A stretch of DNA of 32,332 bases. Source: Pseudomonadota bacterium (GTDB lineage: Bacteria; Pseudomonadota; Gammaproteobacteria; Steroidobacterales; Steroidobacteraceae). The stretch is taken from contig JAKAZL010000018.1 in assembly GCA_021815925.1 (NCBI GenBank), positions 2,705-35,036 on the forward strand, in the 5' to 3' direction. The notes under the pieces were generated by a model that was not told the origin of the DNA, did not search any database, and saw only the letters and a program-made list of their open reading frames with translations. Positions 1,480 through 30,868 of the stretch are shown here, in pieces (positions within the stretch are counted from its first letter, which is position 1; each line of letters starts with the position of its first letter). The translations under genes were made by a program, and so were the position numbers.

Positions 1480-2354
1480 CACGGGGCAGCCTTGCGCGTC
1501 GCGGCGGCAATGGCGCCGGGCGAGGTGGCGCTGAGCTGCACCGACACGTACATCCCCGGCAGCAGACGGTGCCCCGGGTTGGCCATGTCGATCTCGGCCA
1601 GCATGGTCTGGCTCTCGCGCGAGAGCGCGTAGCTGACGCGGGTGATCTTCACCGGAATACGCACGCCCGGCAGGTCCACCGAGGAGACCACCGCCGGGCA
1701 TCCGGGCCGCACCGAAGGCGCGGTGCGCTCCGGCACGGGGATCTGCACGCGCACGCGGCTGAGGCTCATCAGCGTCACGATGGCCGCGCCCTTGGGGTCG
1801 CCCGCGGTCGGCACCGCGACGAATGCGCCCGGATCGACGTAGCGGGCGGTGATCGTCCCGGAGAACGGCGCGGTGACCCGCGCGTAGCGCAGCAACGCCT
1901 CGACGCGGTCGAGCTCGGCCTGGGCCACCTCCACCCGTCCGCGATACCGGTCCACCTGCTCCGGCGTCACCAGATCGGGCGCCGCCTTGGCCGCCTGCTG
2001 GATGCGCGCATAGTTGCGCGCGGCCACATCGAGCTGGGCGCGGTACTTGACCCGGTCGGCCGCGAGCTCGGGCACCTCGAGCTCGGCGATGAGCTGCCCG
2101 GCCTTGACCCGGTCGCCCTTGTCCACCGGGATCGCCTTGACGAAGCCGGCGACCTTGGCGGTGATCACCGCCGCCTGGTAGGCGACCACGTGCGCCGGCA
2201 ACACCAGCGCCTCAGTCCTCGGCCCGGCCGGCTCACCGGCCTGCGCACGGGCAAGACCCGCGAGCAGCACCGCCGCGCCGAGCGCCGCGGCCAGTCCCCG
2301 CCACCACCCTGCGGCGGACCCCCGGCTCGGCCGGCTCGTTGCACTGCGTGTCAT
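1479..2354 (-). CDS. RND efflux periplasmic adaptor subunit (short)
   Basis: A 291-residue membrane fusion protein that should link the inner-membrane permease to the outer-membrane channel. It has an N-terminal signal or anchor (hydrophobic about 18-38). The first half of the lipoyl domain lies around 63-92 (AAVITAKVAGFVKAIPVDKG), a helical hairpin about 93-157, the second lipoyl half at 158-180 (RVTAPFSGTITARYVDPG), and beta-barrel segments follow to the end. It is short for the family (commonly 350-400), with little or no membrane-proximal domain. The ATG at 2354 is preceded by a strong GGAGGA site seven bases away, which itself overlaps the permease stop. The stop overlaps the TolC-like start by one base. 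Substrate not readable from sequence. Confidence 0.9.
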   Translation of the reverse strand: MTRSATSRPSRGSAAGWWRGLAAALGAAVLLAGLARAQAGEPAGPRTEALVLPAHVVAYQAAVITAKVAGFVKAIPVDKGDRVKAGQLIAELEVPELAADRVKYRAQLDVAARNYARIQQAAKAAPDLVTPEQVDRYRGRVEVAQAELDRVEALLRYARVTAPFSGTITARYVDPGAFVAVPTAGDPKGAAIVTLMSLSRVRVQIPVPERTAPSVRPGCPAVVSSVDLPGVRIPVKITRVSYALSRESQTMLAEIDMANPGHRLLPGMYVSVQLSATSPGAIAAATRKAAP

Positions 2355-2366
2355 CGTCGTTCCTCC

Positions 2367-5300: not shown

Positions 5301-5519
5301 GTACAGGAAGTTGTATTCGTAGTAATAGGTGAGGAAGCCCTCCATCTGGGCCGCCGTCATGCCCGGGTAGGGCTGGGCCACGTAGATCGTCGGGACCCCG
5401 AGCGGCGGAAACACGTCCGCGGGCATCTTCGAGATCGCCAGCAGCGCGCCGGCGATCGCGCCGACGACCAGGACGAACACGGTGTAGGGGCGCCGCAGCG
5501 CGAGCCGCACGAGACTCAT
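2367..5519 (-). CDS. RND efflux transporter permease subunit
   Basis: A full-length 1050-residue proton-driven inner-membrane pump of the AcrB/CzcA superfamily. The N terminus (VRLALRRPYTVFVLVV) is the usual first helix, followed by the porter-domain motif VFPPLGVPTIYVAQPYPGM. Helix 4 reads LVLAVGILVDQSTVVIENIH: one aspartate is kept, the neighbouring position that is Asp in HAE1 pumps is Gln, and the downstream Glu of IEN is present. The second half repeats the layout and contains GAIMAVGVAIANAILFVTFAERAR. The start at 5519 has an AGAAGG-like ribosome site. Twelve bases separate its stop from the adaptor. The gene lies downstream of a two-component system on the same strand, so metal or envelope stress may be the signal; drug or metal substrate cannot be decided. 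Confidence 0.93.
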   Translation of the reverse strand: MSLVRLALRRPYTVFVLVVGAIAGALLAISKMPADVFPPLGVPTIYVAQPYPGMTAAQMEGFLTYYYEYNFLYIDGIRSVEARSIEGAALLKLTFQPGTNMSQAMAQTVQYVNRAHAYMPPGAVPPFVVRFDAGSVPVGYLAFSSPHRTVEQMQDLALNTVRPMFATLPGVSAEAPFGGSARTVVVSLDPARLQAYGVSSDQVVSAIAKAETISPSGNIDLGSRYPVVELNSIARNLQDLAAVPIRTGTFPAVFVRDVGSVADAADITTSVALVNGSPTVYMPVIKRADASTLNVVNEVKANLARFRSALPADVSVSYVMDQSPFVTRAIGSLTMEGALGALLAGAMVLLFLRDWRSAFIVVLNIPISLLAAVFALWLTGQSINIMTLGGLVLAVGILVDQSTVVIENIHTHLVHKETVEHAVLDASHEVVIPLLIAMLCVVAVFLPSFAMVGAARALFVPLSLAVGFSMIASYLLANTLVPVLSVWAFRAWHHAGEASDSESNSFVHLQAAYRRHLEPLVRRRVPVLVGYLTVCAALLALLAPRLGADIFPRAESGQAQVQMRLRMPAGTRLDLTVQAAQRALGLIKREAGEHSVQVSLAFAGVHGASYPSNFIYLWNSGPQEAVLQVQFKRDVQLDLAAFRDRLRRDITRELPNVQLSFEPADIISRVMSFGASTPIEVDAVGPDLEQDRRYAERIRERLATIGTLRDVQFGEPLDYPSVRVEVDRERAGVLGVTQKDVIQSLTPSTASSRYTQRVFWAAPNGISYAVQVQIPQHHLASIEDLRNVPVTGSGGATHLLRNLGAIDPGTVVGEYDDYNNQHYVAVTANIEGTSLGAAAGQVQRALAAAGEPPAGVTVAVRGEVQTMTELMGALSGGLLLAVFVIALLLVANFQSWELALVAMASVPAVLVGVVLMLLTTGTTLNLESFIGAIMAVGVAIANAILFVTFAERARLEGQSAAEAGVSGAVSRLRPIVMTTLAMMAGMLPMAAGWGEGGQQSAPLGRAVIGGLALATLATLWVLPAVFALIRAKAPRRSPSLDPDDPTRIAG

Positions 5520-5607
5520 CAGCCCTTCTGCCTTTCGATCGCAGGCGGCCGTGTGGCCGCGTTGCTCGAGACAGTAGCCGGGTCATCCTGACGGCAGCAT
5601 GACCTGA

Positions 5608-5636
5608 AGATGACCGATCGGTCATCTGGCGGACAA
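5608..5636 (-). promoter_or_regulatory. Candidate RND promoter with a 20-bp palindromic operator
   Basis: Bases 5608-5627 form a perfect 20-bp palindrome, AGATGACCGATCGGTCATCT. On the minus strand TTGTCC (5631-5636) could be a -35 box and TCATCT (5608-5613) a weak -10 box, 17 bases apart, which puts the palindrome in the spacer and over the -10. A second inverted pair, GGTCAT (5581-5586) and ATGACC (5599-5604), lies nearer the gene. The ACCG/CGGT core resembles TetR-family operators. No TetR gene is present in the window; the neighbouring response regulator is another candidate binder. Confidence 0.5.
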
Positions 5637-5682
5637 TGGGCAGCAGTTGTGAGCCGTTGCGCGTGCGGCGCGCGATTTGTCC

Positions 5683-7122
5683 CTACGAGGCTTGTGGAAA
5701 GTACAGCTGGACGGTGGTGCCCCGGCCGACCGTGCTCTCGATGCGCAGCGTGCCACCGTGCAGGTCCATGATGGACTTGACGATCGCAAGACCGAGCCCC
5801 GAGCCGCCCGGTCCGCCGGCCCGCGCCGGATCGACGCGGTAGAAGCGATCGGTGAGCTTCGGCAGATGCTCCGGCGCGATGCCGATGCCCGTGTCGCTGA
5901 CCCGCAGGTTGAAGCCGCCGTCGGCGCTGTTCTCGCCCTCGATGCGCACGCGCCCGCCGCGCGGGGTGTGCTTCAGGGCGTTGGAGACCAGGTTGCTCAG
6001 CGCCCGACGCAGCAGGGACGGATCGGCGAACACCTGTCCGGCGCCCGCGCAGCTGAACTCCACGCCCGACTCCTCGGCGAGCATCTGGTAGAACTCCTCG
6101 ACCGCCTGCATCTCGTGCGCCGCATCGAGCGGTGCGCGCTCCGGAGCGCGGCGCGTGTGCTCGGCGTAGGCGAGAAACAGCATCCGGTCGATCATGCGCG
6201 CCAGGCGACCGTACTCCTCGAGCGCCGAGTGCAGCACCTCGCGGTACTCCGGCGCGCTGCGCTCATGAGCCAGCGCGACCTGCGCCTCGCCCATCAGGTT
6301 GTTGATCGGGGTGCGCAGCTCGTGGGCGAGATCGGCCGAGAACTGCGTGATCCGCTCGAAGGACTGCTGCAGCCGCTCGAGCATCCCGTCGAACGCCGCG
6401 GCGAGCGCGGTGAGCTCGGCCGGCCAGGCGGTCGCACCGATCCGCTCGTGCAGCTGCTCGGCGCCGATGCGCTCGGTGGCGCGCGTGATGGCGGCGATGG
6501 GCCTGAGTCCGCGCCGGGCGATCCACACGCCGATCGCCGCGGCGAGCAGCACGCCGCCGGCGAGCACGAGGATCATCCGCTGCAGGTAGCCCTCGAGCAG
6601 CCGCTGCACCGAGCCCATGTCGAGCGCGGCCTGCAGTCGCCACGGCGAGGTCGGCTCGAGCGCTCCGGGGATCGCCGCGGAGACGAGCAGGAAGCGGCGG
6701 TGATCGCGCTCGAGCTCCCCTCTGGCCTCACTCGCCCCCGGTGCCACCCAGGGAAACACCTCATCGGGCAGCAACGTGCTCATGCCGCGCGTCTCGACGA
6801 GCACGCGGCGGTGCGCGTCGAGCACCCGCAGCAGGAAGCGCGAGCGGAAGTTGCGTGAGATCTCCGCCTCCTCGGCCACCTTCGGGGCGATGCCCGTGGT
6901 TCCCCCGGGCACGCGCTCGAGCAGCCGGGTGACCACGCTCACCTTCTCATCGAGGGAGGCCCAGCTGGAATCATCGAGACTGTGCTGCAGTCCGAAGTAA
7001 AAGACCGCCGAGGCCACCCCGAGCAGCGCGAGCGCCGCGATCGTGTAATAGACCGACAGCCACGTCGCCATCGCCGCGCGGCGCGGCCGTTCGGGAGCGT
7101 TACGGGCGCGCTTCCAGAACAT
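5683..7122 (-). CDS. Sensor histidine kinase, CusS/CopS-like (heavy-metal sensor type)
   Basis: A 479-residue inner-membrane kinase. Helix 1 spans about 20-44, a periplasmic sensor region follows to about 181, and helix 2 is about 182-202. A HAMP linker spans about 203-255. The phospho-acceptor histidine is His267 in the H-box [16 protein letters not shown]. The ATPase part carries the N box ([10 protein letters not shown]), D box ([12 protein letters not shown]), F box (DRFYRVDP) and G box ([10 protein letters not shown]). The layout matches the Cu/Ag/Zn sensor kinases that pair with CusR-like regulators, but the ligand is not readable. Its start overlaps the end of the regulator by 23 bases; the Met at residue 18 is an alternative start that would remove the overlap. 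The RND operon follows after 163 bases. Confidence 0.9.
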
Positions 7123-7774
7123 AGCCCATGCCGCGGACCGTGTGGATGAGCTTGACCGGGAACGGATCGTCCACCTTGCGCCGCAGACGCCGCACGGCCA
7201 CGTCCACCACGTTGCTGTCGCTGTCGAAGTTCATGTCCCAGACCTGCTCGGCGATCACCCAGCGCGAGAGCACCTCGCCCTGGCGGCGCGCGAGCAGCGA
7301 CAGCAGCGCGAACTCCTTCGGCGCCAGATCGAGCTTCAGCGCGCCGCGCTGCGCCCGGCGGGCGAGCAGGTCGAGCCGCAGGTCGGCGATCTGCAGCACC
7401 TCCGGCTGGCGCTCGGCGCGCCGGCGCAGCAGCGCACGCACCCGCGCCAGCAGCTCGGTGAAGGCATACGGCTTGACCAGGTAATCATCCGCCCCGAGCT
7501 CCAGGCCCCTCACCCGGTCCTGCACTTCCCCGCGCGCGGTCAGAAAGAGCACCGGTGTGGACTTGCCGCTGCGGCGCACATCCGCGACGATCGACCAGCC
7601 ATCGAGGCGCGGCAGCATCGCATCGAGGATGATCAGGTCGTAGTCCATGTTGAGGGCCCGGAACCGGCCCTCCTCGCCGTCCTCGGCGACATCGGCGATG
7701 AATCCCGCCTCGGTCAGTCCTTCGCGCAGGAATGCCGCGGTTTTCTTCTCGTCCTCTATGATCAGGATGCGCAT
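7100..7774 (-). CDS. OmpR/PhoB-family response regulator (CusR/CopR-like)
   Basis: A 224-residue DNA-binding regulator. The receiver domain (1-115) has the acidic pair in IIEDE, the phospho-acceptor Asp51 in LIILDAMLP, the Thr of LFLTARG and the Lys of LVKPYAF. The C-terminal winged helix (about 125-222) contains [21 protein letters not shown] and ends with [24 protein letters not shown], a signature of the heavy-metal response-regulator group. It is paired with the adjacent kinase and probably controls the RND genes downstream. It is divergent from dapE. A small palindrome, GTGTACAC (7790-7797), sits 16 bases before the ATG and could serve autoregulation, but this is unproven. Confidence 0.92.
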
Positions 7775-10368: not shown

Positions 10369-11688
10369 CTAGCCGCTCAGGCGCTCACCCTGCCCGGCGA
10401 GCACGCGCTCGGGCGGGAAGTGGCAGGTGAAGGTGCTGCCCTTGCCCGCGGTGCTCACGATCTCGAGCTCAGCCCCGTGGCGCTGCAGCACGTGCTTGAC
10501 GATGGCCAGGCCGAGACCCGACCCGCCGGTGGCCCGCGAGCGGCCCGGATCGACCCGGTAAAACCGCTCGGTGAGCCGCGGCAGGTGCTCGGCCGGGATG
10601 CCGATGCCGGTGTCGGTGACGGCGAAGTGTCCGCCCTCGAAATCGCTCCACCAGCGCATCTCGATCGAGCCCTCGGACGGGGTGTACTTGGCGGCGTTGT
10701 CGACCAGGTTGGCAAATGCCGAGTGGATCTCCGACTCCTTGCCGATCAGGGCCGCGTCCGAGTCGATCCGCAGGCGGACCTCGCGCGGGTGCGCCGGCCG
10801 GGCGAGCACGTCGCGGCGCAGCAGCGCCATCAGTCCGGCGACATCGAGCGGCTCGCCGCCGGCGCGCTCGTCGGTCTCCTCCAGGCGCGACAGCTCGAGC
10901 AGATCGCGCACGATGGCCGTCATGCGCTCGGCCTGGCGGCGCATCTCGGCGATGGGCGTGGTGAATTCCGGATCGAGCCCCGGGTCCTGAGCGAGCGTCT
11001 CGAGGTAACCGGAGATCACGGTGAGCGGCGAGCGCAGCTCGTGCGAGGCGTTGGCCACGAAATCCCGCCGCACCGCCTCGAGGCGCATCTGCCGGGACAC
11101 GTCCGCCGCGAGCAGCAGCTGCTGGCCGTCGCCGTAGGCAACCAGCTGCACCGAGAGGTAGCTGTCCGGCGGGCTCGAGCGGCGCACCACCACGGGGTTG
11201 GCGTAATCGCCCTTCTCGAGGTAACGGGCGAACTGCGGCTCGCGCAGCAGATTCTCGATGCGCACCCCGACATCGACCGCGTGGCGCAGCCCGAGCAGGC
11301 GCGCGGCCATGCGGTTGAACCAGACGATCTCGCGCTGCGCGTTGAGGATGACCACCCCGTTCGGCAGCGCCGCGGTCGACAGCTGCAGCTGGCGCATCAG
11401 CTGCACGAAGCGCTCCTTGTGGAAGCGCTTGCGCCGGTGCAGCCGCGCAATGAGCGAGATGACCGTGCCCCACACGCCGCGCGCCTCGGGCGGCTCGGCA
11501 ACGCTCCGGTGCTGCAGCCACCACTCGACGCGGTAGAGCAGCGCGAGGTGCCAGAGCAGATACGCCCCGAGGGCGAGCGCCACCCCGCCCCAGGGCCGCC
11601 CGGCCAGCGCCCCGAGCAGCAGCCCGGCGAGTGCCGCGCCGGCGACCCGGGCCGCGGCGTAGCCGAGCGCCTGGGTTGCCGGTCGCAT
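10369..11688 (-). CDS. phoR: Phosphate regulon sensor histidine kinase
   Basis: A 439-residue kinase that phosphorylates PhoB under phosphate limitation. Two N-terminal hydrophobic helices lie within about 12-52 with almost no periplasmic loop, as in E. coli PhoR. A PAS domain spans about 100-200 (PNGVVILNAQREIVWFNRMAARLLG). The acceptor is His216 in FVANASHELRSPLTVISGYL. The ATPase domain has an N box (FANLVDNAAKYTP), VTDTGIGIPAEHLPRLTERF and [14 protein letters not shown]. The ATG at 11688 overlaps the phoB stop by one base (TGATG). A GTG directly before it at 11691 is the alternative start and would give a four-base overlap. Confidence 0.96.
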   Translation of the reverse strand: MRPATQALGYAAARVAGAALAGLLLGALAGRPWGGVALALGAYLLWHLALLYRVEWWLQHRSVAEPPEARGVWGTVISLIARLHRRKRFHKERFVQLMRQLQLSTAALPNGVVILNAQREIVWFNRMAARLLGLRHAVDVGVRIENLLREPQFARYLEKGDYANPVVVRRSSPPDSYLSVQLVAYGDGQQLLLAADVSRQMRLEAVRRDFVANASHELRSPLTVISGYLETLAQDPGLDPEFTTPIAEMRRQAERMTAIVRDLLELSRLEETDERAGGEPLDVAGLMALLRRDVLARPAHPREVRLRIDSDAALIGKESEIHSAFANLVDNAAKYTPSEGSIEMRWWSDFEGGHFAVTDTGIGIPAEHLPRLTERFYRVDPGRSRATGGSGLGLAIVKHVLQRHGAELEIVSTAGKGSTFTCHFPPERVLAGQGERLSG

Positions 11689-19462: not shown

Positions 19463-20701
19463 GTGATCGGACGACCCTTCGTGTATCCCCGGTTCATCGA
19501 GCAGCGTGTGCGAGACGCCCTGTCGGACACGCGCGTAGTGCTGATCACAGGGCCGCGGCAAGCGGGCAAGACGACGCTGGCGGAAAAGCTCGCCCACAGT
19601 GAGATGCCCTTTTTGACTCTGGACGATCAGACGACCCTCGACACGGCGCGGGCCGATCCGGTGGGCTTCGTTCGGGGTCTCGACCGGGCCGTCATCGATG
19701 AGATTCAACGCGCACCGGAAGTGCTGCTGGCGATCAAGCGCAGCGTAGACACCGACAAGCGCCCAGGCCGCTTTCTTTTGACCGGTTCCGCAAATCTCAT
19801 GATGCTGCCGCAGGTCGCGGATTCGCTCGCCGGTCGTATGGAGATTGCAGAACTCCTTCCGCTCTCCCAAAGCGAGCTTCGCCGCCGACCTTGCGAATTT
19901 CTCGCACGAGTTCTGCAAGGAAAGCCTCCTATTGCGGGTCAACCCGTCGTCGGACAGGAGCTCCTTCATCGTGTGACATCCGGCGGCTACCCCGAGGCCC
20001 TCCAACGGACTTCCTGGCCGCGCCGGCAGAAATGGTTCCTGGATTACACCAAAGCCGTCATCGAGCGCGATGTACGTGACATTGCGCAAATCGAGCATGC
20101 CAGACAGATGCCTCGGCTGTTGCGGATCCTCGCTCAGCATTCCGGAAGACTGGTCAACTATTCGAGCGTCGGCGCGCCGCTCGGCATAGGACATGTGACG
20201 ACACAGAAATACACCGGCGTTCTCGAGCAGCTCTTTCTGATCCGAACACTGCAGCCCTGGTACACCAACGAGCTCAAGAGACTCGTCAAGACACCCAAAC
20301 TGCACTTTCTCGACTCAGGCCTCCTGACCGTGCTGCGCGCTCTGTCTCCGGCCCGGCTTGCATCGGACCGCATGTCCTTCGGGTCCGTTCTCGAGACATT
20401 CATACTAGCCGAGCTTCTCAAGCTCGCCACGTGGCACCACGAACCGCTTGAATTCTTCCACTTTCGTGACCGCTACGACTACGAAGTCGACATCGTCATC
20501 GAGGACTCACGTGGTCACGTCGTTGGGATTGAAGTGAAAGCGGCCGCAACCGTAACCGGCGCCGACTTCTCCGGCATGCGCAAGCTTGCGGAGGCTTGCG
20601 GTAAGCGCTTCATCATGGGTTTGGTGCTATACGACCACAATATCGTGGTGCCATTTGGCGAGAAATTCTTTGCCGTCCCGGTTTCCACCCTGTGGCAATG
20701 A
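19463..20701 (+). CDS. AAA ATPase with C-terminal DUF4143 domain
   Basis: A 412-residue protein of the common but poorly understood AAA_14/DUF4143 family found in mobile and defence-rich regions. The ATPase part has Walker A GPRQAGKTT (30-38), Walker B AVIDEIQRAP (76-85) and sensor LLTGSANL (105-112). The DUF4143 part shows DYTKAVIERDVRDIAQIE and, near the end, a PD-(D/E)XK-like set Asp343 (YEVDIVIED) and Glu357-x-Lys359 (GIEVKAA), suggesting a nuclease-like fold; activity is unproven in this family. The start is GTG at 19463; no strong ribosome site is seen. GC is clearly lower than in the core genes to the left. Its last 271 bases recur downstream at 23970-24240. Confidence 0.88.
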   Translation: MIGRPFVYPRFIEQRVRDALSDTRVVLITGPRQAGKTTLAEKLAHSEMPFLTLDDQTTLDTARADPVGFVRGLDRAVIDEIQRAPEVLLAIKRSVDTDKRPGRFLLTGSANLMMLPQVADSLAGRMEIAELLPLSQSELRRRPCEFLARVLQGKPPIAGQPVVGQELLHRVTSGGYPEALQRTSWPRRQKWFLDYTKAVIERDVRDIAQIEHARQMPRLLRILAQHSGRLVNYSSVGAPLGIGHVTTQKYTGVLEQLFLIRTLQPWYTNELKRLVKTPKLHFLDSGLLTVLRALSPARLASDRMSFGSVLETFILAELLKLATWHHEPLEFFHFRDRYDYEVDIVIEDSRGHVVGIEVKAAATVTGADFSGMRKLAEACGKRFIMGLVLYDHNIVVPFGEKFFAVPVSTLWQ

Positions 20702-20702
20702 C
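20432..20702 (+). repeat. DUF4143 3' segment, copy A
   Basis: By direct alignment this 271-base segment matches 23970-24240 without gaps and with about 25 differences (about 91% identity). Identity begins at TGGCA and ends just after the stop codon (TGGCAATGAC). The differences include about a dozen amino-acid changes, so the copies are related paralogues and not a fresh duplication. Confidence 0.9.
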
Positions 20703-21584: not shown

Positions 21585-21902
21585 TCAGATCCCAATGATC
21601 AATAGGTCGAGCGCGGCGATGATGGTGGCGCGTTCGTCAACTACGTTCCCGATCGGCTGGCCCAACTCGCGCGTGGAAATGCCAGCCAACTGCGGAGTGA
21701 GCATGACGTACTGCTTGCCATCGATCGCAAGAATTGGAGCGAGCTGCTTCATGACGACATCCCGTGCTGCGGCAACAGGGCTCAGCGGCACGACGACGCG
21801 CGTCGACAGTGGCTCAAGCAGGTCCGACTGGACATCGAGCAGCAGCGGGAAGCGCCCCCTAGTCGCAGCATTTCGGTTCTTGTAGACAGCGAACTGCGGC
21901 AT
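21585..21902 (-). CDS. ccdB: CcdB-family toxin (gyrase poison)
   Basis: A 105-residue toxin. In characterised systems it traps DNA gyrase on cleaved DNA. The N-terminal MPQFAVYKNRNAATRGRFPLLLDVQSDLL, the strand STRVVVPLSP, GKQYVMLTPQLAGI and the final ALDLLIIGI match the family; the C-terminal Gly-Ile corresponds to the gyrase-binding end of F-plasmid CcdB (Trp-Gly-Ile), with Ile in place of Trp. The ATG at 21902 shares one base with the ccdA stop (TGATG); a TTG one codon upstream is an alternative. It converges on rraB across 112 bases that show no gene. Confidence 0.93.
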   Translation of the reverse strand: MPQFAVYKNRNAATRGRFPLLLDVQSDLLEPLSTRVVVPLSPVAAARDVVMKQLAPILAIDGKQYVMLTPQLAGISTRELGQPIGNVVDERATIIAALDLLIIGI

Positions 21903-22126
21903 CAAAAGCTGCGCACTGGGTCACCGAATGCGCCGTGCTCGTCAATCTCGCGGTTGTAGGCCGCGATAGCTCCAGAGTTTTCCGCAAGCCACCTGTCGCG
22001 TCTGCGAATCCGGAGCTGCTCAGCCAACGCACCTTCCAGCGCCGCCGAGAGGTTAATGTCCTCGGCCCGCGCTGCATCGAGCAGCTCGGCAGGAACCGAT
22101 ACATTGACCGCCTTTTTGGCTGGCAT
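21902..22126 (-). CDS. ccdA: CcdA-family antitoxin
   Basis: A 74-residue antitoxin. The N-terminal ribbon-helix-helix (KKAVNVSVPAELLDAAR, then EDINLSAALEGAL) binds the operator, and the C-terminal tail (RWLAENSGAIAAYNREIDEH, ending AFGDPVRSF) is the toxin-wrapping segment typical of CcdA. The ATG at 22126 is preceded by GGGGAG at proper spacing; the in-frame extension to 22165 would overlap the operator. It is directly followed by ccdB. Confidence 0.94.
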   Translation of the reverse strand: MPAKKAVNVSVPAELLDAARAEDINLSAALEGALAEQLRIRRRDRWLAENSGAIAAYNREIDEHGAFGDPVRSF

Positions 22127-22145
22127 CCTAGCTCCCCAGTGTGGA

Positions 22146-22181
22146 TGCGCATAGTGTATGCGCACATATCATGGGGCGCAA
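22146..22181 (-). promoter_or_regulatory. ccdAB promoter and operator
   Basis: On the minus strand TTGCGC (22181-22176) and TACACT (22158-22153) are 17 bases apart. The -10 box lies inside a perfect inverted repeat, TGCGCATA (22146-22153) and TATGCGCA (22157-22164) around a three-base centre. A repressor bound here would block the promoter, as expected for CcdA-CcdB autoregulation. Confidence 0.65.
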
Positions 22182-22310: not shown

Positions 22311-22721
22311 CTAGCTTGCGGGTTCCCAAACCTTTAACTTGCAATGTCTGGCGGCAAGCACGAAGTCGTTGTCGGCCGTGAGGATCGTCAACCCGTGTCT
22401 GATGCACAACTGTGCGAGCAGTGCGTCTACAGTCCCGAGTTGGACCCCGGAGCGGCGGCACCGATTGCGGAGGGCCGCGGCGTCGATGTGGTCTTGTCGA
22501 TTTGGTATCAGCAGCGGTAACGCCGAGAAGCGCTCGATGATATCGCTCCCGGCTCGAGGTCCGACGAATCCTTGGAGAAGCTCCTGGAGAATCAGTCCTG
22601 TCGTGACGATCGACTCGCCACCCCTCAATCCAGCCTGCAGCGCTCCCACATGAGGCTCGTCTGCTGGGCGATCGCGGCGAAAAGCCAGCGACCATACACT
22701 GGTGTCAACCAGCAAGGTCAC
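22311..22721 (-). CDS. vapC: VapC-family PIN-domain ribonuclease toxin
   Basis: A 136-residue PIN-domain protein. The acidic metal-binding residues are in place: Asp6 (LLVDTSVW), Glu47 (LILQELLQG), Asp99 (GTVDALLAQL) and Asp117/Asp119 (LTADNDFVL). Family members cut tRNA or rRNA when released from VapB; the target here cannot be predicted. The start is GTG at 22721, overlapping the vapB stop by four bases (GTGA). The 184 bases between its stop and ccdA hold only the ccd promoter region. Confidence 0.92.
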   Translation of the reverse strand: MTLLVDTSVWSLAFRRDRPADEPHVGALQAGLRGGESIVTTGLILQELLQGFVGPRAGSDIIERFSALPLLIPNRQDHIDAAALRNRCRRSGVQLGTVDALLAQLCIRHGLTILTADNDFVLAARHCKLKVWEPAS

Positions 22722-22918
22722 CGCCGCGAACGCTCAGCTTTGTAGTCAAACGAGTCGTCCCACTCAAGCTTGCCCATCAAATCCAGCAGTCGTCTCTGCT
22801 GGCGCCTGGCGATGAATTCCTCCAGAGCCCTGGTAACTGCAGCTTTCTTGGTGGATTCGCCGCTCACTTCAAGAGCGCGCTCGAGAAGCGCGGGATCGAT
22901 TGACAGATTAGTGGCCAT
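22718..22918 (-). CDS. vapB: VapB-family antitoxin
   Basis: A 66-residue antitoxin. The N-terminal half (MATNLSIDPALLERALEVSG, then STKKAAVTRALEEFIAR) is the DUF2191/ribbon-helix-helix type DNA-binding part, and the C-terminal LLDLMGKLEWDDSFDYKAER is the toxin-binding tail. The ATG at 22918 has GGGAG seven bases upstream. The frame continues to 22999, but that part covers the promoter. It is translationally coupled to vapC. Confidence 0.92.
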   Translation of the reverse strand: MATNLSIDPALLERALEVSGESTKKAAVTRALEEFIARRQQRRLLDLMGKLEWDDSFDYKAERSRR

Positions 22919-22937
22919 GTGTGATCTCCCACACACG

Positions 22938-22966
22938 AGTGTACACATGGAACCGGGTCGTGGCAA
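22938..22966 (-). promoter_or_regulatory. vapBC promoter with small palindrome
   Basis: TTGCCA (22966-22961) and TACACT (22943-22938) on the minus strand are 17 bases apart, and the octamer palindrome GTGTACAC (22939-22946) overlaps the -10 box, a likely VapB binding point. The -10 hexamer is the same as in the ccdAB promoter. Confidence 0.55.
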
Positions 22967-23237
22967 ATGGCAGCAAATCGGCGGCCGCTGCGTGGGCACG
23001 GCTTAGGAGCCCTCGAACTGGCCGCTGTGCGCAATTCCGGGTATAGGCGCTCGTTGCTCGCGCTTAGACAAGCTGACGTCCCCTGGAGTGGTGAACGAGG
23101 GATCTTCGGATCCGGGCTTTTAGCTCTGCCCCCGTAGGGCGGTCGCGGCCGACCGGCCGCGGAGTCGAGGAGGCGGTCATCGTGATTTCTGGATAAGGTT
23201 GGGTTGCGACACCTTCAACTTTGCCAGGAGCACCACG
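22967..23237. other. Region before the transposase gene, probably with the left IS end
   Basis: No gene is seen. Somewhere in about 23090-23237 the IS256-type element should begin. The near-palindrome GGATCTTCGGATCC (23100-23113) and a GC-rich hairpin around 23140-23160 lie here, but a terminal repeat cannot be fixed because the right end of the element is missing. No remnant of the N-terminal half of a second DUF4143 ATPase was found. Confidence 0.35.
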
Positions 23238-23970
23238 ATGACCGCGAAGGCCAATATCTCATTGAGCGAGCTCGCCGAAAAGGGCGCCGACGCCGATTTG
23301 CTGCGCGAGATGATCCAGTACGTCGCCCAGCGCATGATGGACATGGACGTTGAGAGTCTGTGCGCTGCCGGGTATGCCGAGCGCAGCCCCGAGCGGCTCA
23401 ACAGCCGCAATGGCTACCGGGAGCGGCTCTGGGAGACGCGCGCCGGGTCGGTGGATCTGAAGATCCCGAAGCTGCGCAAAGGCAGCTATTTCCCCGGTTT
23501 CCTCGAGCCGCGACGCACCGCCGAGAAGGCCCTCGCTGCGGTGATCCAGGAGGCCTACGTGCAGGGCGTCTCGACCCGCTCGGTCGACGAGCCGGTCAAG
23601 GCGATGGGGATGCAGGGGATCAGCAAAAGCCAGGTCTCACGGCTGTGCGCGGAGATCGACGAGCGGGTCGGTGCGTTCCTGGAGCGCCCCAGCGAGGGGG
23701 ACTGGCCGTATCTGTGGATCGATGCGACGTACATCAAGTGCCGCGAGGCCGGCAGGATCGTCTCCAAGGCCGCAATAATCGCCGTTGCCGTGAACACCGA
23801 GGGCGTGCGTGGGGTACTGGGCATGGCCACCGGGCCGTCGGAGGCCGAGCCGTTCTGGAGCGCCTTCCTGCGCTCGCTCACGCGCCGCGGGCTGCGCGGG
23901 GTGAAGCTGGTGATCTCGGACGCTCACGAGGGGCTGAAGGCCGCCGCGGCCAAGGTCCTCTCGGCCCCCT
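23238..23970 (+). mobile_element. IS256-family insertion sequence remnant (5' part of transposase)
   Basis: Codons 1-244 of the chimera encode the N-terminal part of a mutator-type (IS256 family) transposase, cut off after the second catalytic Asp. The DDE glutamate, the C-terminal third and the right terminal repeat are absent, so the element cannot move by itself. Confidence 0.85.
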
Positions 23971-24239
23971 GGCACGACGAACCGATCGAATTTTTCCACT
24001 TCCGCGACCGCTACGACTACGAAGTCGACATCGTCATAGAGGATTCACGTGGTCACGTCGTTGGGATTGAAGCGAAAGCGGCCGCAACCGTAACCGGCAC
24101 CGACTTCTTCGGCATGCGCAAGCTCACCGATGCGTGCGGTAAGCGCTTCATCATGGGTTTGGTGCCATACGACCACGATACCGTGGTCCCGTTTGGCGAG
24201 AAACTCCTTGCCGTCCCGGTTTCTACCCTCTGGCAATGA
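23238..24239 (+). CDS. In-frame chimera: IS256-type transposase N-terminus fused to DUF4143 C-terminus
   Basis: A 333-residue open frame of two unrelated parts. Residues 1-243 are an IS256-family transposase (LNSRNGYRERLWETRAGSVD; catalytic Asp162 in WIDATYIK; Asp228 in VISDAHEGLKAAAAKV). In intact relatives the sequence continues with a WQRCRVHF-like segment and a later catalytic Glu; here it changes at residue 244-245 into WHDEPIEFFHFRDRYDYEVD, the end of a DUF4143 ATPase, and runs to that protein's natural stop. The nuclease-like residues Asp264, Glu278 and Lys280 are kept. The join lies in TGGCA, a sequence probably shared by both parents. The ATG at 23238 has CAGGAG seven bases upstream, so the fusion can be translated. 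It may be a pseudogene or a new protein. The last 17 bases overlap the convergent MarR-type gene. Confidence 0.88.
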   Translation: MTAKANISLSELAEKGADADLLREMIQYVAQRMMDMDVESLCAAGYAERSPERLNSRNGYRERLWETRAGSVDLKIPKLRKGSYFPGFLEPRRTAEKALAAVIQEAYVQGVSTRSVDEPVKAMGMQGISKSQVSRLCAEIDERVGAFLERPSEGDWPYLWIDATYIKCREAGRIVSKAAIIAVAVNTEGVRGVLGMATGPSEAEPFWSAFLRSLTRRGLRGVKLVISDAHEGLKAAAAKVLSAPWHDEPIEFFHFRDRYDYEVDIVIEDSRGHVVGIEAKAAATVTGTDFFGMRKLTDACGKRFIMGLVPYDHDTVVPFGEKLLAVPVSTLWQ

Positions 24240-24240
24240 C
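23970..24240 (+). repeat. DUF4143 3' segment, copy B (in the chimera)
   Basis: This is the gap-free partner of 20432-20702 at about 91% identity, and both copies end at the same stop codon plus one base. The left limit coincides with the transposase junction and the right limit with the end of the coding frame; sequence beyond differs completely. Confidence 0.9.
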
Positions 24241-24771
24241 CTTTTTCCTGCGGACCCGCGAACCCGCGCGACTTCGCGAAATTCTTGCGATTCCACCGCT
24301 CGAGGGCGCATCACCGATCTGCGTCGCGGCATCCAGACTCAGGGCCCGCTCTTTGATGCGCTGCAATACCGCTATACAGCAGCGAATGTCGCCCGCGGAA
24401 ACGCCCTCGAGCAGATCGGCATTCAGTTGCATCGCGACCGCAGTAATCCGCTCGAGTAGCCCGCAGGCCTTGGGACGCAGGTGCACCGTCTTACTGCGCC
24501 GGTCCGCGTCCGACTCGTGCCGCTCGATCCAGCCGTCGGCCGCCATCCGATCCAGCAGCCGCGCGAGCGTGGGACCTTCCACACCGAGGCGCTCAGCCAG
24601 TTCCGTCTGTGTCATCCCGTCACCGGCACACGAGAGCTTCAGCAGCGTAATCCACTTTGCCTGGCTCAATCCGAGCGGCTTCAGGCGCTGATCGAGCCGA
24701 TAGCGCCAGGCACGGCCGGTTTCGCCCAACAGAGCCCCAATTCCCGGGTCCGTGGAAGACTTAGGCACCAC
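24223..24771 (-). CDS. MarR/SlyA-family transcriptional regulator
   Basis: A 182-residue winged-helix regulator. Dimerisation helix IGALLGETGRAWRYRLDQRL is followed by LGLSQAKWITLLKL, the recognition region MTQTELAERLGVEGPTLARLL, and the wing WIERHESDADRRSKTVHLRP; this is the SlyA/HosA-like subgroup. The start is GTG at 24771, six bases after GGGGAG; the frame is open up to 24924 but without MarR-like sequence. It is on the same strand as, and 197 bases downstream of, the RND permease, so it may be the last gene of that operon or have its own promoter. It probably represses the pump in response to a small ligand. Confidence 0.87.
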   Translation of the reverse strand: MVPKSSTDPGIGALLGETGRAWRYRLDQRLKPLGLSQAKWITLLKLSCAGDGMTQTELAERLGVEGPTLARLLDRMAADGWIERHESDADRRSKTVHLRPKACGLLERITAVAMQLNADLLEGVSAGDIRCCIAVLQRIKERALSLDAATQIGDAPSSGGIARISRSRAGSRVRRKKVIARG

Positions 24772-24968
24772 GCGCAGCTCCCCGTTTGAAAGTCGCGCTA
24801 CCCTGCCCTGCGCCGTCCTCGATGTCCTCGCAAAGGAGCCGATGAGCCGCTTCACACCCCTCATGGCCCTGTAAGCCGCGCGCGAGCACAACCCGAGGCA
24901 GCGTCCGCCAGCCCCACGCCTCAAAGCACCTAAATGCCCTCATTGCCATGCTCACGTCGTGATGACCC

Positions 24969-27900
24969 TCACGCACTCGCGTCCGCAGCAACACTCACGC
25001 GCCGGTCCCGCGCCAGATAGGTGTACACCACAGGCACCACATACAGCGAGAATAGCGCACCGATGGCGAGGCCTGCGGCAATCACCAGCCCCATATCGAA
25101 GCGGCTCACCGCGCCGGGGCCGGTGGCAAAGACAAGGGGCAGCGCGCCAAACACCATTGCGCCGGTCGTCATCAGAATCGGACGAAGACGGATGCTCGAT
25201 GCCTTCTCTACCGCAGCACGACGATCCAGTCCCTCGGTTTCCTGAATGACGTTGGCGAATTGCACGATCAGGATGCCCTGCTTCGTGATCAACCCAATCA
25301 GAGTAATGAGTCCGACCTCCGTGTAGATATTGATCGTCGCGGCGCCGAGGTACAGAAACACCAAGGCCCCCGTGATCGCCATGGGCAGTGTCACCAGAAC
25401 GATCAAGGGATCGCGGAAGCTCTCGAACTGCATGGCGAGCAGTAGATACACCAGCACCACGGAAAGCGCAAAGCTGATGATGATCGCGTGGCCCTGCTGA
25501 ATGTACTGGCGCGACTCGCTGGCATAATTGATGCCGAACCCGGGCGGGAGGATCTTATTCGCCTCAGTCTTCAGGTACGTCAGCGCCTGCCCGAGCGTGA
25601 CACCCGGCGCCATGACGCCTTCGATCGTCGCGGAGTTCAGCTGCTGAAACTGCGGCAGAAACTCCGGCTGCACATCAGTGTGCACGCTCATCAGCGTCGA
25701 GAGCGGAATCAGCGCGCCCGTACCGCTGCGGATGTAGTAATCCCGCAGCATCGATGGATGAGCACGGAAGCGGTCCGACACCTGCGGAATGACCTTGTAG
25801 CTGTGGCCGGACATGTCAAATCGATTGACGTAGTTACCGCCGAGCAAAGGCTCGAGATTGTCGGCGATGGTGGCCATGTTGATGCCAAGGTCACCGGCAA
25901 GACTGCGGTTGACATGCAGGACCACTCCGGGAGAGTCGTAGCGCAGATCCTTGGTCAGAAATGCGAATCGGCCGCTCTGCATCGCCTTGCCGATGAGCTC
26001 GTTCGCCACCTGATCGATGTTGCCGAAGCGGCTGCTCGAGGTGATGACGAACTGGACCGGAAAGCCTCCGGCCGAGCCCGGCAGCGTCGGCTTCGCGAAG
26101 GCGGCCGCCTGCACGCCGGTCAGCTGATTCAGCTGCTGCTGCACCGCCGGCATCAGCTCCATCTGCGTCTTGGACCGCTGGCTCCAGGGCTTGAGCTTCA
26201 TCCCGCTGATCAGCGCATTATTTGTTGCACCGCTGAGAGACACACCGTCGATCTGGAAGATCTGCTTGGTTTCGGGAAATCCCCTGAACATCTGCGCGAT
26301 CTGACGCGAATAATGGGTCAAATAATGCAAAGTCGCCGTTGCCGGTCCGGTGGCCGAGACGAGGATGAGGCCCTGATCCTCCGTGGGCGCAAGCTCACTC
26401 GGCGTGCCAAAAAACAGAACGGGAATCGACACGAGGACCGCCGCAGAGACCACCAGGGCCGCCGAGCGGTACTTGAGCACCGCCGCGAGCGATCGATCGT
26501 AGGCGCGACGCAGATGCTCGTATCCGACATCTAACGCATGCGCAAAGCCGTGCGGGGGAGACGGACGCAGCACCCTGGAGGAGAGCATCGGCGAGAGCGT
26601 GAGCGCGATCACTGCGGAAACCGCAACGGTGAACACCAGCGTAAATGCGAACTCCGAGAACAAACTGCCCGTCAGTCCGCCAGTCAACGCGATGGGCGCA
26701 AACACAGCCGCCAGCGTGGTCGACATCACGATGATCGGGCTGCCGAGCTCGCGGGCCCCGAGAATGGCCGCATCGAATCCGCTCATCCCCTCTTCCATAT
26801 GCCGATGAATGTTCTCGACGATGATGATGGCGTCGTCCACGACCAATCCAATTGCGAGCACGATCGCCAACAGCGTGATGAGATTGATCGTGTAACCGAA
26901 TGCGATCATGAAAATCCCGCCGCCCACGATCGCCAGAGGGATGGCGACGGCCGGAACGAGCAGGGAGCGCAGTGAGCCGAGAAACAGAAAGATCACGATG
27001 ACGACAACGGCCAGCGTAATCGCAATGGTCGTCATGACCTCATGGATCGACTTCTGGATGAAGACGCTGCCGTCGTATGGGATTGCCGCCTCGATTCCCG
27101 GAGGCAGCGAGCGCCTCAATTGCGCAAACGCGTGATGGACGCCGGTGGCCACCGACAGGCTGTTGGCATTCGGTGTGGCGAAGACCCCGATGAATACCGC
27201 GGGCTTTCCGTTGTAGTAGACCGCCTGATTGTAGCTCTGACCGCCGAGCTCGACCTTGGCCACATCACTCAGGCGCACCAGCGTATTGCCGGAGTGTGCC
27301 ACGATGAGATTGCGGAATTCGCTGGCGTTGTGCAGGATCGTGTCGGCGCGGATGGGCCGTGCAATATTGGTCGAACGGGTACGGCCTACGGCGCTGATGT
27401 AATTGTTGGCGGCAAGCGCAGCGGATACTTCCGCCGGCGTCACCCCCAGGGCCGCCATGCGGTTCGGGTTCAGCCACACGCGCAACGCAAAGCTGTCGCC
27501 GCTCGGCCCGGTGCCGGCCGGCACGATCTGCGCTTGACCGACGCCTTTGACCCCCTGGATCGCCGGTTGCACGACGCGCAACACGTAGTCATTCACCTGC
27601 TGCTGGCTGAGCGTCTTGCTGTAGAACGCCAGATACATCAGGGCAGTCTGATTGCCGACGGTCTCATTGATCACCGGCGCCTGGGTCCCGGTGGGCAACT
27701 GGTTCTGGACCTGTTGCACCTTGGACATGATCTGCGCAATGGCAGCATTCGGATCGTAATTAAGCCGCATGTACACCGTGATCGTCGAGGTGCCCTGCGA
27801 GCTTGTGGCCGTCATGTAGTCGATGCCGGGTGCCGAGGCGATCGCCTGTTCGAGCCGTGCCGTCACGAAACCGAGCACGGTCGAGGAGCTCGCGCCGGGG

Positions 27901-28052
27901 TACGCGGTGGTCACTGTCACCAGGGTGCTCGTGACCTTCGGATACTGACGCACCGCCATTTCGCTCCACGCGCGCAACCCGAGCAGCAGGATGACGAGGC
28001 TCAAGGCGGTGGCGAGCACCGGCCGACGTACGAAGATGTCCGTAAAACGCAT
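24969..28052 (-). CDS. HAE1-type RND efflux permease
   Basis: A 1027-residue proton-driven pump, complete. N-terminal helix 1 (MRFTDIFVRRPVLATALSLVI), porter motif AVRQYPKVTSTLVTVTTAYPGA, and helix 4 with the usual double aspartate (LAIGLVVDDAIIIVENIHRH) are present. The second half has AMQFESFRDPLIVLVTLPMAI and LIGLITKQGILIVQFAN. It resembles the MexF/TriC/MdtB-C type multidrug pumps. It follows the adaptor gene after 17 bases. Codon choice and base composition are less GC-biased than for the first RND gene, consistent with a separate origin. Confidence 0.94.
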   Translation of the reverse strand: MRFTDIFVRRPVLATALSLVILLLGLRAWSEMAVRQYPKVTSTLVTVTTAYPGASSSTVLGFVTARLEQAIASAPGIDYMTATSSQGTSTITVYMRLNYDPNAAIAQIMSKVQQVQNQLPTGTQAPVINETVGNQTALMYLAFYSKTLSQQQVNDYVLRVVQPAIQGVKGVGQAQIVPAGTGPSGDSFALRVWLNPNRMAALGVTPAEVSAALAANNYISAVGRTRSTNIARPIRADTILHNASEFRNLIVAHSGNTLVRLSDVAKVELGGQSYNQAVYYNGKPAVFIGVFATPNANSLSVATGVHHAFAQLRRSLPPGIEAAIPYDGSVFIQKSIHEVMTTIAITLAVVVIVIFLFLGSLRSLLVPAVAIPLAIVGGGIFMIAFGYTINLITLLAIVLAIGLVVDDAIIIVENIHRHMEEGMSGFDAAILGARELGSPIIVMSTTLAAVFAPIALTGGLTGSLFSEFAFTLVFTVAVSAVIALTLSPMLSSRVLRPSPPHGFAHALDVGYEHLRRAYDRSLAAVLKYRSAALVVSAAVLVSIPVLFFGTPSELAPTEDQGLILVSATGPATATLHYLTHYSRQIAQMFRGFPETKQIFQIDGVSLSGATNNALISGMKLKPWSQRSKTQMELMPAVQQQLNQLTGVQAAAFAKPTLPGSAGGFPVQFVITSSSRFGNIDQVANELIGKAMQSGRFAFLTKDLRYDSPGVVLHVNRSLAGDLGINMATIADNLEPLLGGNYVNRFDMSGHSYKVIPQVSDRFRAHPSMLRDYYIRSGTGALIPLSTLMSVHTDVQPEFLPQFQQLNSATIEGVMAPGVTLGQALTYLKTEANKILPPGFGINYASESRQYIQQGHAIIISFALSVVLVYLLLAMQFESFRDPLIVLVTLPMAITGALVFLYLGAATINIYTEVGLITLIGLITKQGILIVQFANVIQETEGLDRRAAVEKASSIRLRPILMTTGAMVFGALPLVFATGPGAVSRFDMGLVIAAGLAIGALFSLYVVPVVYTYLARDRRVSVAADASA

Positions 28053-28069
28053 CGCGCTGTCCTTGGCTC

Positions 28070-29173
28070 TCAGCGCGCGCTGCGGCGATGAATCACGACG
28101 GGCGTTCCATTGCGCAGCTTGATCTGGCCGGCCGTTACCACGCGCTCTCCGGCATTCAGACCCGAGAGAACTTCGGTGAGCGGACCGCGCGCCTGCCCTG
28201 CCCTGATTGGCGTCGAAACGGCCAGCTGCTGCTCATGGTCGGCTGCCGAGCGCGTCTTGATGACGTAGACGTAGTCGCCGAAAGTACTGTAGGTGACCGC
28301 CACCGTCGGCACGGCCAGCCGCTGGTGCGCCGAGCCGACGAGAATCGTCGCCTCACCGAACATGCCCGGTCGGAGCTGCATTTTTGGATTCTGGACGATG
28401 GCCTCGACGGTAACGTTGCGCGTATTGGGGTTGATCTCAGAATTGATCGCAGCGATCTGACCCTCGAACCGTTGCCCGGGAAAGGCATCGACCGTCAGGG
28501 CGACCGTCTGGCCCGGGTGAATCAGGCCGCTCTGGCTCTGCGGCACGGTGAACTCAGCTCGTAGTGGATTCCACACATTGAGCGCCGCAATTTCAGTACC
28601 CGGCGAGAGATACTGACCGAGGCTGACCTTGCGCACCCCCATCCAGCCCGAGAACGGCGCACTCACGGCCAATTTGGCGAGCGTCGCACGCACGTTGTCG
28701 ACGGCCGCCTTGGCGCTCTGCTCATCCGCCTTCGCGGTATCCAGTGCCGCCAGGCTCGTCGCCCGTGCGGCATACAGGTGCTGCGCCCGCTGGAAATTGA
28801 TGCGGGCGAGCGCCTCGTTGGCGCGATCCTGAGCCAGCGTCGCCAACTGGTTCGAGTCGTCAAGCTGCACGAGCCGCTGGCCCTTGCGCACGTGCTCGCC
28901 GGAATGGAAATAGATACCGGTGACCTGCCCGGACAGCTGTGGCGTCAGATTGACGCCGGACGTGGCCACCAGGCTCGCAACCGTCTGGATTTCCGAGCGC
29001 CAGGACACTTTAACCACTGGGGCCGCGGAGACACTCACCTCGTATGGCCCCCGGTGTGCCTGGGCCGCCCGCGCGGAGTGCTCCCGCCAGAGCTTGATGC
29101 CGCCGATCACCGCAATCACCACCGCGACGATGAGCACTGTGCGCAATACGATGCGCCGCTCGGAGTCCGCCAT
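28070..29173 (-). CDS. RND efflux periplasmic adaptor subunit
   Basis: A 367-residue membrane fusion protein with an N-terminal membrane anchor (about 9-28), a split lipoyl domain (SGQVTGIYFHSGEHVRKGQRL and APFSGWMGVRKVSLGQYLSPG) around a helical hairpin (about 105-160), a beta-barrel (PLRAEFTVPQSQSGLIHPGQ), and a membrane-proximal domain with RLAVPTVAVTYSTFGDYVYV. Full family length, unlike the short adaptor at 1479-2354. The ATG at 29173 is three bases after the stop of the outer-membrane gene and has GAGGAGAAG inside that gene's end, indicating coupled translation. Confidence 0.94.
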   Translation of the reverse strand: MADSERRIVLRTVLIVAVVIAVIGGIKLWREHSARAAQAHRGPYEVSVSAAPVVKVSWRSEIQTVASLVATSGVNLTPQLSGQVTGIYFHSGEHVRKGQRLVQLDDSNQLATLAQDRANEALARINFQRAQHLYAARATSLAALDTAKADEQSAKAAVDNVRATLAKLAVSAPFSGWMGVRKVSLGQYLSPGTEIAALNVWNPLRAEFTVPQSQSGLIHPGQTVALTVDAFPGQRFEGQIAAINSEINPNTRNVTVEAIVQNPKMQLRPGMFGEATILVGSAHQRLAVPTVAVTYSTFGDYVYVIKTRSAADHEQQLAVSTPIRAGQARGPLTEVLSGLNAGERVVTAGQIKLRNGTPVVIHRRSAR

Positions 29174-29176
29174 CGG

Positions 29177-30697
29177 TTACTTCTCCTCAGCCATACTGGA
29201 TGTTCCTCTGGACTGCATCGCCGGATGTGGCTGAGCGGCCGGCCACGGTGCCGTCCAGCTTCCACCGAGTGCGACGAACAGGCTCACGGTGTCGAGATAT
29301 CGATGCGACTCTGCCTGGATGTAGCTCAACCGCGCATTGCTGTACTGGACCTCGGCGGTCAACAGCGAGAGGTAATCGACCGCGCCGTCCCGGTAACTCG
29401 TCTCGGCCACCTGCAAGGCCGCGCGGTTCGCCGCGAGCGCATTCTCTTCGTCCCGCAGGGTTTGCGCGTCGTGCTCGAGGGCCCGCAGAGCGTTGGCCAC
29501 CTGTTGGAAGGCCCCCAATACAGTCTGCCGGTATGCTGCAAACGTCGCCTCATAGGACGCAATCGCTTCGCGCTTCTGCGCCTCGAGCGTGCCGCCAGCA
29601 AAGATCGGCATGGCAAGATCCCCGGCAATGCTCCAGATGTTGCTGGCAGCATGTAGCAAGGCCCCCGGGGCGCTACTCTCCTGGCCGAACTGGGCGGTCA
29701 GCGTAACAACCGGATACATTCGGGCCTTCGCGACGCCAATCTCGATGTCTGCGTAGCGCACCTGCTCTTCTGCCGAACGGATATCCGGGCGCTGCTTCAA
29801 CAGCGTGGACGGAAGACTCACCGGAATCCGCACGGGCAACCGCACATCTCTCATGCGCGGCGAGCCATCACGCCACTGCGCAGGCAGTTCGCCCACCAGA
29901 ATCGCCAGCTCGTGCCGATATACCGCCCACTGCTGCTCAAGCGACGGCAGGCTCGCCTCGCTCGAAGCCACTTGGCTGCGCTGCGTGAGCACACTCAAGT
30001 AGGGCACCGCGCCGAAGCGGTATTGGGTCTCGGTCAGCTTCAGCAGGCTCTTCTCGTGGGCGATGATCGAGCGAGTCGCCACAATCTGCGCTCGCACCGA
30101 CGCGGCACTGATTGCGGCAGCAGCGACGTTCCCGATCAGCGTCAGCCGGGCGGCATCAAGCTGGTAGCGCTGATAGTCGACCAGTGCCTTCTCACCCTTG
30201 AAAACCAAGCGGTTCACGCCGAAGAAATCCGGATAGTAGCTGACCGCGAGTCCGCCCGAATACAGCGAGTAGATGCGGCCTGGAAAAGATCCACCGGAAC
30301 CGGCTGAGGACGTGCGTTGTCGTGAAGCACCGAGATCGCCATTGACCTGAGGGTAAAAAATGCCTTCAGCTGCGGCCATTGCGGCCTGTGCCTCGCGCAA
30401 TTTCGCCTGCTCCTGCACCAGACCGGGATTGTTCGCCAGCGCTTGACGGATGAGCGCATCGATTTGGGGCGAATGGAACTGACGCCACCAATTGGCGACC
30501 GGGGAGGCCCCGTAGTCGAACTGCTGCGCCTGCCCGACCGGCCCGCTGGCACTCACCGTGGCGTGCGGCGATGGTGCGTACGTGTACGAGTTCGTGTGCA
30601 CCGCGGGGAGAGAATACCGGGGCGCGAAAGAACAGCCGGCGAGACTCAGCAGGCCCACGCAGCCGACTGCCCATAGCGCAGCGGCGTTTCGTTTCAT
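29177..30697 (-). CDS. NodT-family outer-membrane efflux lipoprotein
   Basis: A 506-residue TolC-fold channel. The N terminus MKRNAAALWAVGCVGLLSLAGC is a lipoprotein signal with lipobox LAGC, so the protein should be acylated. Family hallmarks include WWRQFHSPQIDALIRQALANNP, QRPDIRSAEEQVRYADIEIGVAKARMYPVV, AMPIFAGGTLEAQKREA and DGAVDYLSLLTAEVQY. The ATG at 30697 follows TGGAG; the open frame to 30814 lacks any family similarity. It is the first gene of the channel-adaptor-permease operon. Confidence 0.94.
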   Translation of the reverse strand: MKRNAAALWAVGCVGLLSLAGCSFAPRYSLPAVHTNSYTYAPSPHATVSASGPVGQAQQFDYGASPVANWWRQFHSPQIDALIRQALANNPGLVQEQAKLREAQAAMAAAEGIFYPQVNGDLGASRQRTSSAGSGGSFPGRIYSLYSGGLAVSYYPDFFGVNRLVFKGEKALVDYQRYQLDAARLTLIGNVAAAAISAASVRAQIVATRSIIAHEKSLLKLTETQYRFGAVPYLSVLTQRSQVASSEASLPSLEQQWAVYRHELAILVGELPAQWRDGSPRMRDVRLPVRIPVSLPSTLLKQRPDIRSAEEQVRYADIEIGVAKARMYPVVTLTAQFGQESSAPGALLHAASNIWSIAGDLAMPIFAGGTLEAQKREAIASYEATFAAYRQTVLGAFQQVANALRALEHDAQTLRDEENALAANRAALQVAETSYRDGAVDYLSLLTAEVQYSNARLSYIQAESHRYLDTVSLFVALGGSWTAPWPAAQPHPAMQSRGTSSMAEEK

Positions 30698-30868
30698 GCG
30701 AGCTCCATTGAATCGCTGCCGCACGCCGCGCGCGCGGGCCACTCTGGGGTAACGGCTATTTGGGTGCATCCTAAGCACATCGAACGAAGCTGCCGCGCAT
30801 GCGGGGCAAGTCAAATCGTGACGCTCCTTCTCACGGGTGCCAGTCGTCGTCTAGCCGGCGACTATTGC

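Follow-up and report, generated by a model that had tools for sequence, protein, structure and literature searches.

A 333-codon reading frame joining a truncated IS256-family transposase to the end of a DUF4143 gene, very probably a chance chimera

The window, i.e. the whole stretch of 32,332 nucleotides analysed here, contains a 333-codon open frame at 23238-24239 (+), as read from the sequence. The frame is composed of residues 1-244 of an IS256-family transposase and the last 89 codons of a DUF4143 gene, joined at TGGCA. The original prediction of an in-frame fusion between these two families was thus confirmed by the open frame, by Pfam and NCBIfam matches and by the nucleotide identity of the tail. 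The features of the locus are as follows.

19463..20701, + strand: intact gene with AAA_14 and DUF4143 domains, 412 aa; its 3' end is 90% identical to the fused tail
23077..23099, + strand: left terminal inverted repeat of the IS; its outer boundary is approximate
23226..23240, + strand: ribosome-binding site AGGAG and ATG start, read in the sequence and also present in the IS copy of genome G036
23238..23969, + strand: N-terminal 244 transposase codons, with D162 and D228 kept and the Glu lost, from profiles, alignments and Foldseek
23970..23974, + strand: the join, TGGCA common to both source sequences, from comparison of source copies
23970..24239, + strand: 3' end (89 codons and stop) of a second and diverged DUF4143 copy; first core helix absent
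24240..24250, + strand: right edge of the DUF4143 piece and start of the conserved marR-RND locus

The AGGAG motif is spaced 7 nt from the ATG, so the good ribosome site that had been predicted is present. The site is native to the IS element, as the G036 copy also has AGGAG. Directly left of the IS lies a vapBC-like pair (PIN domain and VapB antitoxin; 22311-22999, -), and a ccdAB-like toxin-antitoxin pair is found at 21585-22165 (-), with 113.2 bits for CcdB and 84.8 bits for CcdA. A MarR regulator together with an RND pump, an adaptor and an outer-membrane factor occupies 24223-30814 (-), and 42 of the 58 genus genomes have partial matches to the DNA of 24240-25300.

The N-terminal part of the frame is clearly assigned. 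Pfam Transposase_mut matched fusion residues 12-242 with 248.6 bits, and the NCBIfam IS256-family model NF033543 matched residues 39-241 with 206.9 bits against a cut-off of 150. Alignment to the ISCth4 transposase (6xg8) and nine other family members identified D162 and D228 as the first two catalytic residues; the 6xg8 alignment spans both of them and ends at fusion residue 237. From W245 on, full-length family members continue with other sequence than the fusion. Passages of PMC7780238 give the ISCth4 triad as D175, D241 and E348 and the helical insertion domain as 261-325, and name Y111, G114, T117 and R118 of IS256 as required for DNA binding. By extension of the ISCth4 alignment, the join at W245 would fall a few residues before the insertion domain. 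Because the family sequence is left at W245, after D228 and before the region of ISCth4 E348, the catalytic Glu is gone and the DDE triad is incomplete, in agreement with the expected break between the second Asp and the Glu. The DNA-binding part had also been expected to be kept, and Y107, G110, T113 and R114 of the fusion, the aligned equivalents of the four IS256 residues, are all present. The fusion therefore resembles the ISCth4/IS256 family over residues 1-244, including D162, D228 and the N-terminal DNA-binding part, but a foreign tail replaces the insertion domain, the catalytic Glu and the C-terminus.

At the DNA level, the 23-bp left repeat (23077-23099) showed 87% identity to the reverse complement of the sequence past the stop of the IS copy in genome G040. 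The G036 IS copy matched 420 bp at 98% from 23100, where the query started, and its similarity extends back to about 23071. Past 23974 the sequence is DUF4143 and then the conserved marR locus; the right end of the element is lost, and the left repeat is the only one of the two remaining. In the copy of the same IS in genome G041 (L010:1473-2282), which also carries a frameshift, family resemblance ends about 7 bp past the position of the fusion's break, after the WQRC codons; the nearness of the two breaks could be chance or a weak spot. In the fusion's own genome, the protein search found no other copy of this IS, its one match being the fusion itself, and DNA searches added just a 30-bp match. 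This match (G000:C16:2337-2366, L003) lies left of the window, is 97% identical to the IS DNA at 23872-23901, and is probably a chance match, no other IS similarity being reported around it.

The tail (W245-Q333, 89 codons and stop) is identical to the end of the intact gene at 19463-20701 in 245 of 270 nucleotides, which confirms its predicted origin as the last 89 codons of a second DUF4143 gene. Intact copies from congeners gave 246 (G052), 243 (G006) and 241 (G036) identical nucleotides out of 270. As the congener copies are as distant from the tail as the local copy, the tail represents a separate, diverged DUF4143 copy. A recent copy of the neighbouring gene was accordingly rejected as its source, with 25 of 270 sites differing from that gene and 24-29 from the congener copies. 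The two DUF4143 ends form a direct repeat of 281 bp with 90% identity (20423-20702 and 23960-24240), about 3.5 kb apart, which encloses the ccdAB genes, the vapBC genes and the IS remnant.

As a domain, the tail is incomplete. The intact gene carries AAA_14 at residues 23-139 and DUF4143 at 201-360, whereas AAA_14 had no match in the fusion and the DUF4143 C-terminal fragment (fusion residues 244-281) scored 24.6 bits, or 25.3 bits with the tail alone, both below the curated Pfam cut-off of 28.1. For the DUF4143 part we take the clan name to be PD-(D/E)XK-like nuclease fold. The D and E-x-K of the tail are retained, as had been proposed; it has to be added that the preceding core helix with an invariant Glu is lost. 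The tail begins at residue 324 of the intact protein, directly after helix 303-322 that holds E311, and E311 is invariant in the alignment of 13 homologues. Moreover, Leu389 of the intact gene, invariant in 13 aligned homologues (the intact gene included), is Pro in the tail. So, the fusion is like the AAA_14/DUF4143 family in its 3' end of 89 codons and stop, where 241-246 of 270 nucleotides are identical to four intact copies, but is without the ATPase part and without the first DUF4143 part, including the invariant-Glu helix. As a separate observation, genome G231 encodes a DUF4143 protein of 510 aa, extended by about 100 residues at the N-terminus, within a 700-codon open frame (L075:1492-3024), for which Pfam reported no extra domain above cut-off.

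Both edges of the remnant were then compared with their surroundings. Beyond the left terminal repeat lies the upstream DNA of vapB, and self-comparison of the window gave no DUF4143 similarity left of the IS. An IS landing inside the second DUF4143 gene, as originally proposed, is therefore unsupported and was not kept. On the right side, the DUF4143 3' flanks of G006 and G036 remain similar up to 24246, at most 10 bp past the stop, and G003 matches the window from 24241 on (85.8% over 1943 bp). The marR-RND flanks retrieved from G003, G045, G020, G026 and G048 contained neither a DUF4143 nor an IS256 match (tblastn, 17 loci, E<=1e-6). This null result lowered the possibility that a DUF4143 gene stood ancestrally beside the marR locus, which was not kept either; the state before the join is thus unseen among the congeners examined. 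Neither edge of the piece is normal, which would point to more than one rearrangement.

The sequence at the join was examined by using the source copies. The IS piece of G040 carries the family sequence through the break, while the DUF4143 genes of G006, G036 and G052 carry the other side. TGGCA was common to all six source pairs (IS copies of G040 and G041 with DUF4143 copies of G006, G036 and G052), and two of the pairs have an exact common run of 8 bp at the join, the other four one of 5 bp. The idea of a microhomology join at TGGCA is hence borne out in outline, with 5-8 bp common to the source sequences. When the G040 IS piece is compared with the G036 gene, 688 of 1416 shared 5-mer placements and 24 of 33 shared 8-mer placements are in frame. 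With roughly one in two shared 5-mers and three in four shared 8-mers in frame, frame keeping itself is not remarkable.

The junction was also sought in related genomes, as had been recommended. A degenerate-pattern search found it in one of 58 genus genomes, namely the window's own, and in one of the 28 genus genomes with at least 90% completeness and at most 5% contamination. At the protein level, 76 of 274 class genomes matched part of the fusion, both halves were covered in the window's own genome only, and among the matches listed those from other genomes reach at most 17 residues across the join. The viral_contigs set gave no junction-pattern match and the genome_contigs set gave one, L030, a Verrucomicrobia record (both sets may omit records of the window's own genome). 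L030 was rejected as the same fusion, its translated surroundings and its frames of at least 150 codons resembling neither source. Among phage records, 35 matched the fusion protein and none with 80% covered.

With the full fusion as query, at least 5000 plasmid records matched, among which at least five had at least 80% of the query at one place. Among the matches listed, 15 in number, each ends at query residue 253 or 254; the five, and the one record in the 80-90% identity band, lie outside these 15. A 133-aa junction query matched 681 plasmid records, three with at least 80% coverage; one of these, H39, has 43.8% identity and is annotated as an ATP-binding protein. A plasmid record with such a fusion may still exist among those with at least 80% coverage. 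Among the paper titles and abstracts listed, none dealt with a transposase-DUF4143 fusion, which is weak evidence.

Selection on the fusion was assessed in two ways. Pairwise dN/dS of the tail against the four intact copies was 0.08-0.23, a range that looks like purifying selection, and this low value would reflect divergence predating the join. Since pairwise dN/dS also takes in the period preceding the join, a count of private changes was used in its place, a private site being one at which one of the five copies differs from four identical ones (changes common to the two closest copies are thereby uncounted). The fused tail has 6 private replacement and 3 private silent changes, against 5 and 16 summed over the four intact copies (own intact copy 1 and 3, G052 0 and 0, G006 4 and 5, G036 0 and 8). 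With only nine tail changes, this contrast is borderline (Fisher p = 0.042). In the first 94 codons, comparison with the G036 IS gave 3 silent and no replacement changes, too few to decide. The private tail changes look unconstrained.

Structures were predicted with AlphaFold. The intact DUF4143 protein (13 sequences) reached a pLDDT of 81.0 and a pTM of 0.82, and its model runs from helix 303-322 through three strands and helix 366-382 to two further strands. The fusion (22 sequences) reached a mean pLDDT of 81.8 and a pTM of 0.54, with ten-residue means of 84-93 over residues 251-330. In its model, the IS-encoded helix 231-240 precedes the tail strands at the place of the missing helix, a correspondence in chain position. 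A folded fusion product is thus possible, both halves being predicted with fair confidence. It should be pointed out that predictions of this type respond poorly to single damaging changes. Foldseek found six matches at E<=0.001 for the fusion, five of which are ISCth4 chains. For the intact protein, five matches were found at the same threshold, two each to Card1 and Can2 (TM-scores 0.15-0.21) and one to the archaeal ATPase 2qen (0.40, query-normalised); the Pyrococcus repair endonuclease 2vld gave E 0.14 and TM 0.18.

Taken as a whole, the fusion is very probably a chance chimera, decaying genome debris and not a novel functional protein. The remnant is most likely confined to this genome or its close relatives. 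IS-associated deletions leave chimeric reading frames. The fusion is like these in combining a truncated, one-ended IS, a short common word and a fragment of another gene, and it differs in nothing essential, its frame happening to remain open. We infer that an IS256-family element came to sit near a second, already diverged DUF4143 copy, and that recombination at the common word of 5-8 bp (TGGCA) joined the two. Lost in this step would be the 3' part of the IS, with its right end and the catalytic Glu, and some 323 of the 412 DUF4143 codons, counted from the start. From the originally proposed history, the IS256 element, the separate DUF4143 copy and a short-word join that dropped the ATPase part and the remainder of the IS can thus be kept. 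Using the IS's own ribosome site, the remnant could still yield a 333-residue protein, which should be unable to transpose by itself, would have an incomplete DUF4143 domain and most likely drifts with little constraint, if any. The frame staying open over 333 codons speaks against debris, as do the lack of replacement changes against the G036 IS in the first 94 codons and the low pairwise dN/dS of the tail. As for the stable new protein once considered possible, the fair AlphaFold confidence is in its favour, but it is weakened by a junction found in none of the other genomes searched, an incomplete tail and changes that look unconstrained.

An expressed fusion might instead repress related IS copies, occupying IS ends without cutting them, with the N-terminal end-binding part kept and the Glu lost. 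The four kept residues aligned with the end-binding ones of IS256 and the native ribosome site would suit such a role. We nevertheless regard it as very unlikely, since the protein search found no other copy of this IS in the same genome to serve as target (the DNA searches adding the 30-bp match), and the junction is absent from the other genomes searched. In addition, the DUF4143 tail would be irrelevant to it, as any 3'-truncated IS could do likewise, and a scan of the + strand at 22900-24300, admittedly of a weak kind, found no sigma-70-like site.

An assembly or library chimera at 23970 is very unlikely. The assembly is in 143 contigs and no other genome searched has the junction, both of which would fit an artefact. 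However, the join lies inside a contig (G000:C16, at about 26,674 of 35,036). At 25 of 270 sites the tail departs from the same genome's intact copy, and the assembly holds no other close copy of the tail. The common sequence at the join is moreover just 5-8 bp, which is short for an assembler to confuse.

It is highly improbable that the 333-residue product is expressed and serves as a cleavage-dead regulator that binds the ends of IS256-family elements, with the DUF4143 tail as a stabilising or nuclease-like module. A new protein whose IS half directs a putative nuclease-like DUF4143 part to DNA, at IS ends or elsewhere, is the least credible reading: the kept D and E-x-K and the fair predicted folding of both halves would allow it, but the core helix with the invariant Glu is absent, an invariant Leu has become Pro, the fusion occurs in a single genome, and nuclease activity of even intact DUF4143 proteins is putative.

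If functional, the fusion would provide a bacterial example of a transposase part joined to an ATPase-family domain of the host. As it stands, it shows in detail how an open, probably meaningless chimeric frame can arise from a truncated IS. It also cautions against relying on 'in frame' and 'motif kept', which are weak evidence, given the share of common 5-mers and 8-mers that lie in frame. Elsewhere in the window, a second RND set with a two-component system is found at 133-7774, and two histidine kinase genes share a DNA repeat of 80% identity (5776-5901 and 10495-10620), as expected for paralogues.
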